A program made the translations under genes and the position numbers. This document shows positions 5,966 to 12,646 of a stretch of 21,808 bases of DNA, piece by piece. Source of the DNA: a virus; IMG/VR virus record IMGVR_UViG_3300007541_000269, positions 1 through 21,808 of that record, one strand, 5' to 3'. The notes beneath the pieces were generated by a model, which was not told where the DNA came from, ran no database searches, and worked only from the letters and a program-made list of their open reading frames with translations. Within the stretch, counting starts at the first letter, position 1. The number at the start of each line of letters is the position of its first letter.

Positions 5966-6589
5966 ATGAAAGGTATGAAGAAAAAACGACCAACCAAAGA
6001 GGAAGTCAAGGCAGCAGCAGACAGGGCGGAAGCGCGCTCGCGCGGGGAGGACTTCGAGACGGAAAGCCAAGGTCCACTTGATCCACCAGAATCACGCGGA
6101 CGTGGGCGCCCAACAAAGTACAAGCCTGAGTATGCAGAACAAGCACGGAAACTCTGCTCGCTAGGTGCTACAGATGCAGATTTAGCAAAATTTTTCCAAG
6201 TTGACACAACCACCATCTGGAGGTGGCAAACCTCGCACCCTGATTTTTGCAATTCGTTAGTGGTAGGTAAGGGTTTTCCAGACGATCGGGTCGAAAGATC
6301 GCTGTATCAGCGGGCAGTAGGATATTCCTACGATGCGGTTAAAATCATGAAGCACGGCGGTGAAATCGTCCATGAGCGATACACCGAGCATGTGCCGCCG
6401 GATCCTGGCGCCGCGATGATGTGGTTGAAGAACAGGCGCAGCGACTCCTGGCGCGATCTCAAACAGCACGAGGTCGGGACGCCCGGTGAATTCGCGGCAA
6501 TGACAGACGATGAATTACGTGCCGAGCATGAGCGGCTATCAAAGGATGTGGCTGCAGTGCTGCACGATGGAACAGACACCGTAAACTGA
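5966..6589 (+). CDS. terS: terminase small subunit
   Basis: This 207-aa protein recognises the packaging site on phage DNA and recruits the large terminase. Residues 1-45 are a charged tail. GRGRPTKYKPEYAEQARKL (45-63) leads into a helix-turn-helix, GATDADLAKFFQVDTTTIWRWQ (67-88), the DNA-binding part common to this terminase family. VPPDPGAAMMWLKNRRSDSWRD (143-164) is the conserved segment after the oligomerisation helices. The ATG at 5966 has GAGGG 7 bp upstream; an in-frame ATG at 5975 is an alternative. The large subunit starts 2 bp after the stop. Family and context agree closely. Confidence 0.93.
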   Translation: MKGMKKKRPTKEEVKAAADRAEARSRGEDFETESQGPLDPPESRGRGRPTKYKPEYAEQARKLCSLGATDADLAKFFQVDTTTIWRWQTSHPDFCNSLVVGKGFPDDRVERSLYQRAVGYSYDAVKIMKHGGEIVHERYTEHVPPDPGAAMMWLKNRRSDSWRDLKQHEVGTPGEFAAMTDDELRAEHERLSKDVAAVLHDGTDTVN

Positions 6590-6591
6590 TC

Positions 6592-8250
6592 ATGCAGGGC
6601 CTCACGAAGCGCCAGCTAGTAGAGCGGCAAGTCGCTATCAATCGGGAGATCCTGCGCCGCGAAGCTCGGCAGCGCCAGACGGAGCGCGGTGGACTATTCG
6701 AGTTCGTCAAATACTTCTGGCACATCCTCGAACCAAAGACGCCATTCGTCGATGGGTGGGCCATTCGGGCGATCTGTGAGCACCTCGAGGCGGTCACGTA
6801 TGGTGAAATCAATCGCCTCTTGATCAATGTGCCACCTGGATTTTCTAAGAGCTTGTTGACGAACGTGTTCTGGCCGGCGTGGGAGTGGGGACCAGCGAAC
6901 CTGCCGCACCTGCGGCACATTGCTTTCTCTTATGCGGCATATTTGACGCAACGCGATAACGGCAGGTTTCGCGACCTTGTGACGTCACGGGAATACATCG
7001 CGCTTTACGGTGATCGATTTGAGGCGGTTGGTGTTGGTGTCGAGAAGATATCAAACAACAAGACCGGCTGGCGGTTTGCGTCGTCAGCGCACGGCGTCGG
7101 AACGGGTGAGCGGGCAGACCGCATCATTCTTGATGATCCACACAACGTAAAAGACGGTGAGTCCGACATAATCCGGACAAAGACAGTAAGGTGGTTTGAT
7201 GAGGCAATGTCAAATCGCCTCAACGATCTGCGGAAGTCCTCCATTGTTGTGATCATGCAGCGGGTTCATGAAAATGACGTGTCTGGGCACATTATCGAGC
7301 ATGAGCCGGAATACGAGCACCTTCTTATCCCGATGGAGTGGGATGGTCGGCGGTTTACAACATCCATCGGCTGGACAGACCCGCGGGAATTCGACGGCGA
7401 GTTGGCGTGGCCAGAGCGGTATCCAGATGAAACACTAAGGCGATCCCGCCGAAATCCATTCATGTGGGCTGGGCAGTACCAGCAAGCGCCGGAGCCGCGC
7501 GGTGGCGGCATGTTCAAGCGTGACTGGTGGGGCCTCGAGCACATCCCGTTCGGGAAACGCCCTCCCGATTGCGAGTACATCGTCGCGTCACTGGACTCGG
7601 CCTACACGAAGCAAGAGCGCAACGACCCGTCGGGATTTACTGTGTGGGGCGTCTACAGGGACCTACACAGTAATCCCAAGGTCCTGATGCTCGGCGCTTG
7701 GCGCAAGCACCTGGAAATGCACGGTCCTCACCAGGAGCGACGCCCGGGCGAAAGCGACAGGGCCTACGTTGATCGCTGCAAGAAAGACTGGGGGCTGGTC
7801 GAGTGGGTGGCCTATGACTGCAAGCGCTTGCGGGTCGATAAGCTGCTGATCGAGGCCAAGGCGAGCGGCATTACGGTGGCGCAGGAGATGCGACGCCTCT
7901 ACGCCAACGAGGCATATGGGATCGAACTCGTAAACCCCGAGGGTGACAAGTACGCGCGCGCCGTTGCAGTGATGCATCTATGGGCCGATGGCTTGGTCAT
8001 GGTGCCGGCGAGCCTTGAGGATCCGAAGGATGCCGATAGTCACCTGGTGCCACGCGACTGGGCACAGACTGTCATCGATGAGATGGCAGTCTTTCCCAAT
8101 GGCAGGTTTAGGGACTTGACGGACTCGACGACACAAGCGCTGAAGCATCTTCGATCTGTTGGTTTGGCTGTGCGGCGCGAAGAGCGGATGGACGAGCAAA
8201 TTGCGCGGTCGATGCATCAGGAGCAGATGCCGCCGCTGTATCCGGTTTAA
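6592..8250 (+). CDS. terL: terminase large subunit
   Basis: This 552-aa motor and nuclease drives DNA into the prohead and cuts it. The N-terminal ATPase shows a Walker A variant VPPGFSKS (80-87, K86) and Walker B RIILDDP (177-183), with Asp-Asp where many ATPases have Asp-Glu. An MQRVHENDVSGHII motif (222-235) and QYQQAPEPRGGGMF (295-308) form the usual link. The C-terminal RNase H-like nuclease has D335 in ASLDSAY, E421 in LLIEAK, and D508/D511 in FRDLTDSTTQAL. Length and motif order are normal for the family and no disruption is seen. It is paired with terS and followed by small genes and the portal. Confidence 0.97.
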   Translation: MQGLTKRQLVERQVAINREILRREARQRQTERGGLFEFVKYFWHILEPKTPFVDGWAIRAICEHLEAVTYGEINRLLINVPPGFSKSLLTNVFWPAWEWGPANLPHLRHIAFSYAAYLTQRDNGRFRDLVTSREYIALYGDRFEAVGVGVEKISNNKTGWRFASSAHGVGTGERADRIILDDPHNVKDGESDIIRTKTVRWFDEAMSNRLNDLRKSSIVVIMQRVHENDVSGHIIEHEPEYEHLLIPMEWDGRRFTTSIGWTDPREFDGELAWPERYPDETLRRSRRNPFMWAGQYQQAPEPRGGGMFKRDWWGLEHIPFGKRPPDCEYIVASLDSAYTKQERNDPSGFTVWGVYRDLHSNPKVLMLGAWRKHLEMHGPHQERRPGESDRAYVDRCKKDWGLVEWVAYDCKRLRVDKLLIEAKASGITVAQEMRRLYANEAYGIELVNPEGDKYARAVAVMHLWADGLVMVPASLEDPKDADSHLVPRDWAQTVIDEMAVFPNGRFRDLTDSTTQALKHLRSVGLAVRREERMDEQIARSMHQEQMPPLYPV

Positions 8251-8320: not shown

Positions 8321-8419
8321 GTGCTTGACCTCATCTCCCCCGGCACAATCATGCTGATCGTTGGCTGCGCTCTGGCGCTGTGCGTCGTAGCAACAGTAGA
8401 CCGGAACATAGAGCCATGA
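8321..8419 (+). CDS. 32-aa single-TM microprotein
   Basis: A GTG start at 8321 is preceded by AAAGGA about 12 bp upstream. The stop (TGA 8417-8419) overlaps the ATG of the next gene (ATGA). The product has a hydrophobic helix IMLIVGCALALCVVATV (10-26) with Asp at the start and a short charged end. Without it the terL-to-pyrophosphatase gap would be 165 bp, long for this cluster. The overlap and helix support it; the length keeps the confidence modest. Confidence 0.45.
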   Translation: MLDLISPGTIMLIVGCALALCVVATVDRNIEP

Positions 8420-8949
8420 GCGGGCCCGACGTCGTCTCTCGAGCAATACGCTTGGCTCGTGAGCACGTACGTGAGGCTGAAGCCAAGGCAGAGAGAAAAC
8501 CCAGCGACGCCGCAAAGCAGGCCGGCAACTACCGCAAGGGTCACCTGACCTGGAATGGTCTCAAGATCACGATCGAGAATCCAAAGGGCTCCATCCGATC
8601 AGGACGCGCAGCCAACGGCAAGACGTGGTCCGTCGTCATGCCTGCGACCTACGGCTACATCAAGCGCTCAGTCGGCGCCGATGATGATCACGTGGACCTC
8701 TACATCGGGGCTAACCCGCTTAGTCAGGTTCTTTGGGTCATTGACCAGGTCGACGCCAAGACTGGCGCATTTGACGAACACAAGGTGATGGCCGGCTTCG
8801 ATACCAAGGACGAAGCGATTGCCACGTATCGTAAGGCGTTCTCCGACGGTAAAGCCGACGACCGCGTTGGCGGCGTGACCAGGATGAACATTGGCCAGTT
8901 CAAACGCTGGCTAGTGAAGTCCGACACAACTCAACCTCTAGCCATGTGA
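8416..8949 (+). CDS. stand-alone inorganic-pyrophosphatase-like protein
   Basis: This 177-aa protein matches, from memory, the InPase-like domain (PF18823) otherwise known inside very large phage polyvalent proteins. Motifs in order are GNYRKGH (37-43), IENPKGSIRSG (53-63), YGYIKRS (79-85), GADDDHVDLYIG (87-98) and FDEHKVMAGF (119-128). They parallel family I pyrophosphatases, whose E-x-P-K-G, Y-G-Y, DGDxxD and DxK elements bind metal and pyrophosphate; E54, K57, R61, Y79, D89/D91/D94, D120 and K123 are candidate equivalents. Residues 1-36 are a basic helix. The ATG at 8416 was chosen over 8380 because of the ATGA overlap. Activity is inferred; pyrophosphate removal would aid DNA synthesis, but the head-gene location is puzzling. 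Confidence 0.8.
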   Translation: MSGPDVVSRAIRLAREHVREAEAKAERKPSDAAKQAGNYRKGHLTWNGLKITIENPKGSIRSGRAANGKTWSVVMPATYGYIKRSVGADDDHVDLYIGANPLSQVLWVIDQVDAKTGAFDEHKVMAGFDTKDEAIATYRKAFSDGKADDRVGGVTRMNIGQFKRWLVKSDTTQPLAM

Positions 8950-9191
8950 GCCATATGACCGACAACAACATGGACATCACAGCCGACGACATCGTCGGCA
9001 TCCTGATTCACAATGCAAACCAAGCCGCATCGCATCTCGCCGTCAACGGCGTGCGGACCGACTGGGCTGCGTTCCATAGGCATCTCACCCGGATGCAGGA
9101 CCTCACGGCGCGCGTTCATTCGCTCGTCCACAGCACACAGAACGGCGCAGCCCCTGGCGATGAGGACGCCATGACCGGCGCCCCGAATTAA
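8946..9191 (+). CDS. small helical hypothetical protein
   Basis: This 81-aa product starts at GTG 8946, overlapping the previous stop (GTGA). An ATG at 8955 is the alternative, giving 78 aa. The sequence is largely helical (DDIVGILIHNANQAASHLA, then WAAFHRHLTRMQDLTARVHSLVHS) and His-rich, with a flexible acidic end. It sits between the pyrophosphatase-like gene and the portal. No family is recognised. Confidence 0.55.
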   Translation: MSHMTDNNMDITADDIVGILIHNANQAASHLAVNGVRTDWAAFHRHLTRMQDLTARVHSLVHSTQNGAAPGDEDAMTGAPN

Positions 9192-9203
9192 GGAAACAGA
9201 TTG

Positions 9204-11486
9204 ATGGCTGGCGGGATCGCATCAAAAGCCTTGTCTACTCCGATTGTCGAACAGGATCCGATTGTTGATGCTGATTTCGACGTCGTTGTGGAAGGCGTGA
9301 CCGACGATGATCCCGCCAACGCAATGCCCGGAATGACGGACGAAGGCACGATCGAGGTCCCACTGCCAGACGGTAGCGTGATCATCGATCTCAATCCACA
9401 GCCGACGCGCTCACAGAAAGTCACTGGGCACACAGAAAACCTCGTCGAGAAGATTGGAGCGGGCGAACTCTCCCGCATTTGTGGCGACCTGTGCCAGGCC
9501 ATCGATTCTGATGATCGGTCACGATCCGAATGGCTTGAGACACGCGCACGCGGTATCGAATTGTTGGGATTGAAATTGAGTGACCCCAAGGCATCGGTCG
9601 CATCCGGCGCCCCGTTGGAGGGCATGTCGACGGTGCGGGATCCTATCCTGCTTGAAGCGTGCATCCGGTTTATGGCTCACGCGTCGGCGGAGCTTTTGCC
9701 TGCATCAGGTCCCGTCAAAGTCAAGAACATCGGCGCGCACACAAAGGACACCGACAAGCAGGCTGAGACCCTTGAGCGGGACATGAACGGTCACCTAACA
9801 ACAACAGCGTCGGATTATTACCCCGACACAAAGCGCATGCTGTTCATGACCGGCTTCGGTGGAAGCGGGTTCAAGAAGCTCTACCATTCGCCCCTAAAAA
9901 ACCGGCCGGTTTCAGAGTACGTTGACGCAAAAGATTTGATCGTGTCAAACGCGGCCGTTGACCTGTCCTCTGCCGCGCGCGTCACGCACGTTGTCAGAAT
10001 GAAGCAGTCTGACATGATCCGCATGAAGCTGTTGGGTGTCTATGCTGACGTCGACACGTCGGCACAGCCCAACGCGCCAGACCGTGTCCAACAAGCCTTG
10101 AACGCGACATCAGGCATAACGCCGCCACAAGATCGACTCGAGGACCAGGATTACGAGCTATGGGAGTGCTACTGCGAGCTTAACATCGATGGGTTCGAGC
10201 ACAAACGAAATGGCAAGGTTACGGGGTTGCCACTGCCATACCGCGTAACGATCGATAAGAACGCGCAACAAATCCTCGAAATCTCACGCAACTGGGACGA
10301 GGGCGACGACGAATACAAAACGCGCGAGACGTTTGTTGAGTATTACTACATCAAAGGTTTTGGCTTCTATGGCATTGGCCTGTTACACATCCTGGGCAAC
10401 ATTGCCACGGCGCTGACAGCCGGCACGCGGGAAGTTCTTGACGCTGGCATGTTGGCCAACTTCCCCGGGTTCCTCTATCTCAAAGACGGCACCCGGCAGA
10501 TGACGAACAACTTCCGCGTGCCTCCCGGTGGCGGTTCGCCGATCCAAGGTGGCGACGGCCGGCGTATCCAGGACTTGGTTATGGCCCTACCATATAAAGA
10601 GCCAGGCCCTGCCTTTATGCAGTTCCTCGACGCATTGCGCCAGAATGGACGTGGCGTTGGCAATATGGCTGAAATTTCCGTTGGCGAAGGCAAGCAAGAC
10701 GCGCCGGTTGGAACAACCTTGGCATTGATCGAACAGGCCACCAAAGTGGAGGCTGCTGTTCACAAAGGTCTGCACTCATCGCAGAGCGAGGAATTCCGGC
10801 TCCTAAAACGGTTGTTTGAGGAGGACCCAGAAGGGTTGTGGCGCCACGCGCGGCGCACAGAAGGAAAATGGAACGAAGATGCGTTGCGGCAGGCGCTGGC
10901 TAACATTGACCTCATTCCACAGGCCGACCCGAACACGCCAAGCCATATGCAGCGCATGATGCGGGCGATCGGCATCAAGCAGCTCCAGGCCGCCAACCCC
11001 AATCTGTACGATCCACGCAAGGTCGATGAGCGTGTCCTGCAAATGCTCGGCATCGACGACTACGATGACCTGTTCCTGCCGCCACAACCGGCGGCCCAAA
11101 TGCCGCCCGACCCAAGGCTCCTCGTTGCACAAATGAACACACAGTTCAAGCAGGCGGAGTTGGGCGCAAAACTGCAGGACAACGAGCGGGATCGCCAATT
11201 GAAGCTGGCGATCGAGCAGCTAAAAATGCAGCCCAAGCCCGGCGATCCAAACGCGACGGCCGAGCAGGCTCCGCCAATCGACCCAAAACTCGCCGTTGCG
11301 CTGATCAACGCGGAGAACGCTCGCCTGGAGCGCGAAGCCGACGCGATCGAAAAGGAAAAGGATCGCGACACAAAGCTGATGATCGAGAAGTTGAAGCTGG
11401 CCGGCAATCTGGCGGTTCACCCTGAAAGCGAAGCGCTGGTTGAAGATTTCTTGGACACGGACAAAGTCCCCCTCTACCGCAACTAG
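9204..11486 (+). CDS. portal protein
   Basis: This 760-aa protein would form the dodecameric ring at one capsid vertex through which DNA passes. It is similar in style to the large portals of P22/SU10-like phages. Residues 1-75 are acidic and likely disordered. The body shows APLEGMSTVRDPILLEACIRF at 136-156, RMLFMTGFGGSGFKKLYH at 211-228 and the DAKDLIVSNAAVDL strand at 241-254. The C-terminal 120 residues are Gln/Lys/Glu-rich helices (AQMNTQFKQAELGAKLQDNE and DRDTKLMIEKLKL), fitting the barrel seen in long portals. The ATG at 9204 has AAGGAAA 7 bp upstream; an adjacent TTG at 9201 is unlikely. Position between terminase and scaffold supports the call. Confidence 0.92.
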   Translation: MAGGIASKALSTPIVEQDPIVDADFDVVVEGVTDDDPANAMPGMTDEGTIEVPLPDGSVIIDLNPQPTRSQKVTGHTENLVEKIGAGELSRICGDLCQAIDSDDRSRSEWLETRARGIELLGLKLSDPKASVASGAPLEGMSTVRDPILLEACIRFMAHASAELLPASGPVKVKNIGAHTKDTDKQAETLERDMNGHLTTTASDYYPDTKRMLFMTGFGGSGFKKLYHSPLKNRPVSEYVDAKDLIVSNAAVDLSSAARVTHVVRMKQSDMIRMKLLGVYADVDTSAQPNAPDRVQQALNATSGITPPQDRLEDQDYELWECYCELNIDGFEHKRNGKVTGLPLPYRVTIDKNAQQILEISRNWDEGDDEYKTRETFVEYYYIKGFGFYGIGLLHILGNIATALTAGTREVLDAGMLANFPGFLYLKDGTRQMTNNFRVPPGGGSPIQGGDGRRIQDLVMALPYKEPGPAFMQFLDALRQNGRGVGNMAEISVGEGKQDAPVGTTLALIEQATKVEAAVHKGLHSSQSEEFRLLKRLFEEDPEGLWRHARRTEGKWNEDALRQALANIDLIPQADPNTPSHMQRMMRAIGIKQLQAANPNLYDPRKVDERVLQMLGIDDYDDLFLPPQPAAQMPPDPRLLVAQMNTQFKQAELGAKLQDNERDRQLKLAIEQLKMQPKPGDPNATAEQAPPIDPKLAVALINAENARLEREADAIEKEKDRDTKLMIEKLKLAGNLAVHPESEALVEDFLDTDKVPLYRN

Positions 11487-12223: not shown

Positions 12224-12646
12224 ATGAGCAATGCTCTGATGTCGCAACGAATTCAGGAGCTTTCCAAGAGCCTGGATATCAAAGAGTCAATTCTGAAGGC
12301 ACTTGGCTCTGCCGTGGATCAGTATCGCCTTTTCGATGATGACGTTCTGTTGGCGACCTACATTCGGCCAGAGAAGACGGCAGGCGGCATTATCATGCCG
12401 GAGCGCGTCAAGGACGAGGATCGGTTCCAGGGCAAGGCTGGCCTATTGCTCAAGTGTGGTGCAGCCGCCTTCAAATTCGACCGGAGCGGGATGTTCAAGT
12501 TCGAAGGCGAGGCCCCGAATATACATTCCTGGGTTGTGTACCGGCCGTCCGATGGCTGGGAAATCGCACTGCATGGCGTGTCGTGTCGCATTATCCGGTC
12601 CGTCATGCTGCGCGGCGTAATAGACGATCCATCCGTGATCTGGTGA
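12224..12646 (+). CDS. GroES-like co-chaperonin
   Basis: This 140-aa protein has a helical N-terminal extension (1-35), then a Cpn10-type beta-barrel: DDDVLLATYIRPEKTAGGII (38-57), PERVKDEDRFQGKAGLLLKCG (59-79), HSWVVYRPSDGWEI (101-114) and GVSCRIIRSVMLRGVIDDP (118-136). The KTAGGIIMPE stretch matches the GroES mobile loop that docks on GroEL, and the QGKAG strand matches QGxVxxxG. Phage GroES-like proteins (T4 gp31 is the model) help the host GroEL fold the capsid protein. The ATG at 12224 was chosen because upstream codons lie in the previous gene's shadow and GGAGA precedes it. No GroEL is encoded here, so it would rely on the host's. Confidence 0.88.
   Translation: MSNALMSQRIQELSKSLDIKESILKALGSAVDQYRLFDDDVLLATYIRPEKTAGGIIMPERVKDEDRFQGKAGLLLKCGAAAFKFDRSGMFKFEGEAPNIHSWVVYRPSDGWEIALHGVSCRIIRSVMLRGVIDDPSVIW

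Follow-up and report, generated by a model that had tools for sequence, protein, structure and literature searches.

The stretch of viral DNA analysed here (21,808 nucleotides of the IMG/VR record IMGVR_UViG_3300007541_000269; hereafter, the window) carries a gene for a free-standing InPase-domain protein of 177 aa (8416..8949, + strand), which is assigned to the family PF18823 by its open reading frame, by a Pfam profile and by its predicted structure. According to our preferred reading, to which we give a probability of about 0.6, the gene encodes a solo InPase, a predicted metal-dependent phosphoanhydride hydrolase that is made late, acts in the infected cell and is perhaps carried in the phage head. 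The enzyme identity of the gene is well supported, while we infer its activity, its substrate and its presence in the virion. The InPase family and its predicted injection with the phage DNA have already been published, and pyrophosphate or nucleotide targets have been proposed in the same work (Iyer et al. 2017; PMC5512222). New here is a solo member of this already known phage enzyme family, which sits in a variable cargo slot. Among the papers listed by searches of the open-licence literature, no report testing the activity of any PF18823 protein was found, and the available excerpt of PMC12667214 mentions the family only for a sequence logo. A single-domain protein of 177 aa is simpler to purify and to assay than giant proteins or portal fusions, and a solo member would allow a direct test of whether the family cleaves pyrophosphate or a nucleotide.

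The InPase gene and its neighbourhood

The InPase reading frame extends from an ATG at 8416 to a TGA at 8949 on the + strand (177 codons plus stop), and an upstream in-frame GTG at 8380 is an alternative start, which would yield a protein of 189 aa. On the opposite strand, reading of 8416-8949 is interrupted by stops. The gene order is TerS, TerL, 32-codon ORF, InPase, 81-codon ORF and portal, all on the + strand. PHROG matches identify the terminase small subunit (phrog_309, 5966..6589) and the terminase large subunit TerL (phrog_38, 6592..8250). The 32-codon ORF (8321..8419) has a GTG start and its stop overlaps the InPase start (ATGA); it encodes a single hydrophobic stretch with a best 19-residue mean hydropathy of 2.5 and may be translationally coupled to the InPase gene. 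The 81-aa ORF (8946..9191), the start of which overlaps the InPase stop, is without family match and precedes the gene for the portal or head-to-tail connector (9201..11486), which was assigned to phrog_1216 by a PHROG match and lacks an InPase domain. Thus, the ORF and its neighbours bear out the claim of the earlier note that the InPase is a separate gene between terminase and portal. Further downstream, a profile match below the Pfam cut-off indicates a GroES-like co-chaperonin 5' of the capsid genes (12233..12646, + strand), and a GroES-labelled gene is present at the corresponding place in four of the opened phage relatives with a homologous portal.

Promoter-like or terminator-like sites were not found beyond chance between 5800 and 11700, so that the InPase gene is probably part of one late transcript and the solo InPase would be produced together with the late packaging and head genes. 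In the same virus, a separate DNA-ejection-like protein is encoded downstream (L064, 2696-5284). The longest contig of this virus (L064 and L065) reaches 35.5 kb and probably represents an incomplete genome. The contigs of this virus are identical across the InPase gene, so that no selection signal can be read from the window copy. The window also contains a gene of the VRR-NUC nuclease type at 918-1358 (PF08774, 26.4 bits). Moreover, a comparison of the window with two further contigs of this virus shows 52 differing positions, all of which lie in 84-814 within the first ORF (29-901), and no differences in the remainder of the 14 kb that they share. In this patch, which looks like a recombined segment, 44 codons carry synonymous and 6 non-synonymous changes.

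Family, fold and predicted active site

The earlier note had placed the protein in the InPase-like family, and both the profile comparison and the fold model agree with this assignment. The window protein matches PF18823 with 171.3 bits (E 1.2e-50; curated cut-off 26.8 bits) over profile positions 2-134 of 135. The score against the family I pyrophosphatase profile PF00719 is 15.2 bits and lies under the cut-off of 23.5 bits, so the protein is not a family I member by profile, and a search of NCBIfam returned no family. An AlphaFold2 model that was built with 52 domains as input reached a mean pLDDT of 93.6. When the model was compared with the PDB using Foldseek, the best 50 matches listed were all inorganic pyrophosphatases (best E 1.2e-3, TM about 0.4), and all 50 matches listed by VIA-align were pyrophosphatases as well (Z up to 7.4, 114 residues aligned, rmsd 3.7). 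A Z value below 8 can on its own reflect a common arrangement, but here the sequence comparison agrees. Thus, the model predicts that the window protein has the family I pyrophosphatase fold, with moderate similarity. A search of the PDB with the profile of the 52 domains retrieved the Pa193 portal (E 8.4e-47), followed mostly by pyrophosphatases at weak E-values.

A comparison with seven host family I pyrophosphatases using hhalign (probability 91.3, E 9.5e-7) paired E54, Y79, D89, D91, D94 and D120 of the window protein with the host residues E21, Y56, D66, D68, D71 and D103, which in the E. coli enzyme are numbered E20, Y55, D65, D67, D70 and D102. Three of the paired residues belong to the putative metal-binding acidic motif D89-D90-D91-H-V-D94 (8680..8697, + strand), which was delimited by this alignment. 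The statement of the earlier note that most catalytic-type residues are apparently kept stands: the acidic site is aligned, including D120 on D103, but in this sequence-level alignment the host K105 falls on H122, one position before the invariant K123.

In classical pyrophosphatases, the substrate-binding basic residues are located on or near a hairpin, and the window protein has no counterpart of these hairpin residues. As judged by spacing only, the distance between E54 and D89 (35 residues) is ten residues shorter than that between E21 and D66 in the host pyrophosphatase L180 (45 residues), as expected if the protein, in line with what PMC5512222 states for the InPase family, lacks the hairpin that the classical enzymes have between their first strands. 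The absence of the hairpin residues and the PF00719 score below the cut-off imply that the substrate may not be pyrophosphate. Taken together, the InPase is a shortened relative of the family I (soluble) inorganic pyrophosphatases, in which E54, D89, D91, D94 and D120 would hold metal ions and thereby activate a water molecule. In the infected cell, the enzyme would then split a phosphoanhydride, either in free pyrophosphate or in a pyrophosphate-bearing nucleotide.

Conservation of the acidic site

The conservation of individual residues was assessed in an alignment of 19 rows (A3), consisting of 15 phage rows obtained by tblastn with no motif filter, the window protein and three IMG/VR rows. 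The 15 phage rows were hand-picked from 468 tblastn records for context and diversity. Another alignment of 52 rows (A1) was derived from scans with the patterns AFDEHKV or FDEHKVM, so that the invariance of its columns 118-125 is partly built in and not independent of the search; conservation therefore rests on A3. The residues D89, D94, D120 and K123 are unchanged in all 15 phage homologues and in all 19 rows. The earlier note had named substitution of these positions in homologues, along with a lack of activity, as what would speak against its reading, and no such substitution was observed in these rows. Moreover, E54, R61, Y79, G80, Q111, F119, E121, A134 and Y138 are invariant in the 19 rows. 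Among the motif-free phage rows, position 91 carries D in 13 cases and E in two, and position 122 is variable (H in 12 of 15). The second family motif, A118-F-D-E-H-K123 (8767..8784, + strand), thus contains four invariant residues, F119, D120, E121 and K123. Judged by sequence, the acidic active site of PF18823 is conserved in the window protein.

Fusions of the InPase domain and a possible link to the phage head

The domain was said to be best known from giant proteins, and its distribution agrees: of the 78 IMG/VR loci, 71 have it in an ORF of 383 aa or more, five, a small minority, are solo and two are cut by contig ends (L058 and L083). The solo loci comprise two of the window's own virus (L002 and L003) as well as L005, L051 and L052. 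In the fusions, the domain is linked to a Mu-type portal (L011), to Phage_portal_3 (L034, L044, L049 and L057), to ClpP-type head proteases (L028 and L194), to the internal-head-protein domain DarA_N (L032, L035 and L047) or to ddrB-ParB (L032 and L038), and other partners are GP88 (L190), TUDOR (L189) and RRM (L055). In addition, the "minor head proteins" of PB1 and ECML-117, which are Pbunavirus-type portals, carry the InPase domain at the C-terminus. Thus, this one phage domain has been combined with no fewer than four head-linked partners that are unrelated to each other, namely two portal types, a ClpP-type protease and DarA_N. In a survey of genomes, the domain was detected in 6 of 398 from the phylum of G026, a genome that was itself selected for having an InPase domain, and all six copies are located in open frames of more than 2100 aa. 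Of 231 genome loci, 80 were kept, and these include one complete ORF near the solo size (L149, 258 aa).

Two further arrangements were observed. GP88 (PF17338) pairs with the InPase domain twice, as it is fused to it in Tunturi_5 (L190, 2935-4272) and encoded just upstream of it in L005 (4509-6516). At L086 (5980-7131), the InPase domain is followed by a region matching the PHROGs of phosphoheptose isomerase and polynucleotide kinase, which is an unusual partner.

At the level of the family, the fusions favour a link to the interior of the head, but they do not do so specifically for the solo gene in the window. For the InPase-ClpP protein gp020 of Cellulophaga phage phi13:1, the GenBank record annotates presence in the virion by MS/MS. 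By analogy with the fusions to portals, ClpP-type proteases and DarA and with this annotation, virion delivery is plausible, and the solo InPase may travel in the head and reach the cell along with the DNA, in the way supposed for its fused relatives. The protein could accordingly act as a delivered effector, which is packaged into the head near the portal, injected, and eliminates pyrophosphate, or an alarm nucleotide that contains it, early in infection. We consider this a serious candidate, somewhat short of even odds. Such a role has been predicted for the family (Iyer et al. 2017; PMC5512222), and it would fit the arrangement in the closest relative, MW202675, in which the domain shares a polyvalent-type cassette with an ART-PolyVal/M15 protein, located between the portal and GroES genes. 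However, the solo protein is without a fused head part or a known packaging signal, its residues 1-28 resemble the stretch preceding the domain in fused relatives and not an evident targeting tail, and the solo copies of the Vibrio phages D509 and 207E48.1 are encoded outside the head genes. A more specific version, in which the free InPase is stored in the head, enters with the DNA and destroys a pyrophosphate-bearing defence nucleotide, seems unlikely to us. If true, the repeated switching between polyvalent and solo forms and fusions to portal or protease would amount to different ways to load one weapon.

The gap between the TerL and portal genes

From the location of the gene, the earlier note had suggested a job in head assembly or packaging. 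Homologues of the window portal were found in 18 phage records, five of which were opened for context, and none of these five has an InPase gene between TerL and portal. In MW202675, the gap is occupied by a dCTP-deaminase/dUTPase-like gene along with small ORFs. It holds two large ORFs in HTVC027P, a PcfJ-like protein in DSL-LC04 and a tRNA in Caulobacter phage RW, and it is empty in CRP-901. In the stretches examined of the five relatives, a clear InPase match was present only in MW202675, where the domain ends an 898-aa protein that is encoded downstream of the portal, before GroES. The portal-GroES interval of the window holds no homologue of the MW202675 cassette. Searching 25 records for the portal family gave four matches, the virus of the window twice, L005 and L008, while a portal scan of viral contigs returned the same virus only and a phmmer search of the window portal against the PDB gave no match. 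As the content of the slot is variable, location says little about function, and the gap in which the gene lies is best interpreted as an accessory slot for swappable cargo rather than as a sign of a packaging function.

A packaging role was therefore rejected as the main reading. A protein that binds the portal or the terminase as a part of head assembly or packaging, with catalysis perhaps lost, would account for the place of the gene, for the C-terminal portal fusions in Pbunavirus and other phages and for the solo copy in L051, which lies immediately after a terminase-small-subunit-like gene. This explanation is improbable given that all five opened relatives hold other cargo or nothing in the gap, that the solo copies of Vibrio phages lie outside the head genes and that the active-site residues are conserved. 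Moreover, in the Pa193 portal residues 529-765, which contain the InPase domain, are without density according to PMC11042391, which indicates that the domain is no rigid component of the portal and argues against packaging.

Solo copies in other phages

At least three Vibrio phages encode a solo InPase (D509, 207E48.1 and YC; 192-202 aa, annotated as hypothetical). In D509 and 207E48.1, the gene is located near genes for a dCMP deaminase and an anaerobic ribonucleotide reductase, and in YC the flanking genes are hypothetical. This context, together with the dCTP-deaminase/dUTPase-like gene in the TerL-portal gap of MW202675, would suit a helper of nucleotide metabolism that works in the infected cell only, where it would act like a viral soluble pyrophosphatase and dispose of the pyrophosphate released when phage DNA and RNA are made. 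Some hosts may also lack a family I enzyme, as 5 of 16 genomes searched were without a PF00719 match. However, most members of the family occur as fusions with head or polyvalent proteins, and the window gene belongs to the late cluster, at a time when most replication would already be under way. We therefore regard this role as possible but tentative.

In a tree of 68 rows, the solo state requires at least four changes, which are all forced by well-supported branches: one each for the window, L005 and L051 and one for the three Vibrio phages together. With regard to a possible origin of the window gene by excision from the 898-aa protein, the window protein groups with domains from large proteins of the polyvalent type and with one portal fusion (support 97/83, seven rows) and not directly with MW202675, L008 and L005. 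This grouping was lost in a tree of a 26-row subset chosen after the first tree, and in this subset a clade of the window with MW202675, L008 and L005 was not rejected (AU p 0.176). The solo InPase of L005 occupies the site of the 907-aa gene of L008 and the 898-aa gene of MW202675, and it is 77% identical to the domain of L008. Substitution rates (NG86) were dN 0.077 and dS 0.544 for the solo copies of L051 and L052 and dN 0.160 and dS 0.608 for solo L005 and fused L008, and dS was saturated for two Vibrio solo copies. By these sequence estimates, purifying selection acts on the solo copies of other phages.

This selection bears on whether the window gene is a decaying, functionless remnant of a polyvalent protein, as the resemblance of residues 1-28 to the pre-domain stretch of fused relatives and the missing portal-GroES cassette might suggest. 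With an intact ORF that overlaps the preceding gene and with every invariant residue retained, such decay is very improbable. Our preferred reading remains a solo, probably active InPase.

Comparison with known systems

The window protein has the family profile, the acidic site and the shortened E54-D89 stretch in common with the phage polyvalent InPase domains (PF18823; PMC5512222). However, polyvalent InPase domains sit in proteins of 383 to more than 4000 aa, while the window copy, a single domain and thus not a multi-domain polyvalent protein, stands alone in the TerL-portal gap. Pbunavirus-type portals such as Pa193 gp19 (PDB 9b41) and PB1 gp18 have a C-terminal domain with the same motifs, and the window protein matches residues 637-762 of Pa193 gp19 (E 3e-24). 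In Pa193 the domain is fused to a dodecameric portal, whereas the portal of the window is separate, belongs to another PHROG family and is without the domain. The family I pyrophosphatases (PF00719) resemble the window protein in their fold and in the acidic residues of the metal site, but the window protein is shorter, scores below the PF00719 cut-off and has an imperfectly aligned catalytic lysine.

Among the solo proteins, those of the Vibrio phages D509, 207E48.1 and YC are of similar size and share the invariant residues with the window protein; however, they are encoded outside the head gene cluster, are 30-32% identical to the window protein and stand apart on the tree. The solo protein of L005 (176 aa) also comes from a phage with a phrog_1216 portal, but its gene, which has a GP88 (PF17338) gene nearby, differs from that of the window in being located where MW202675 has the gene for the 898-aa protein. 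In the 898-aa protein of Caudoviricetes sp. MW202675, the InPase domain covers residues 731-873 and is 51% identical to the window protein, and the portals of the two phages are 48% identical. The 907-aa protein of L008 is a homologue of this 898-aa protein. Thus, in MW202675 and L008 the InPase domain forms the C-terminus of a large protein, unlike in the window, where it is encoded as a solo enzyme.
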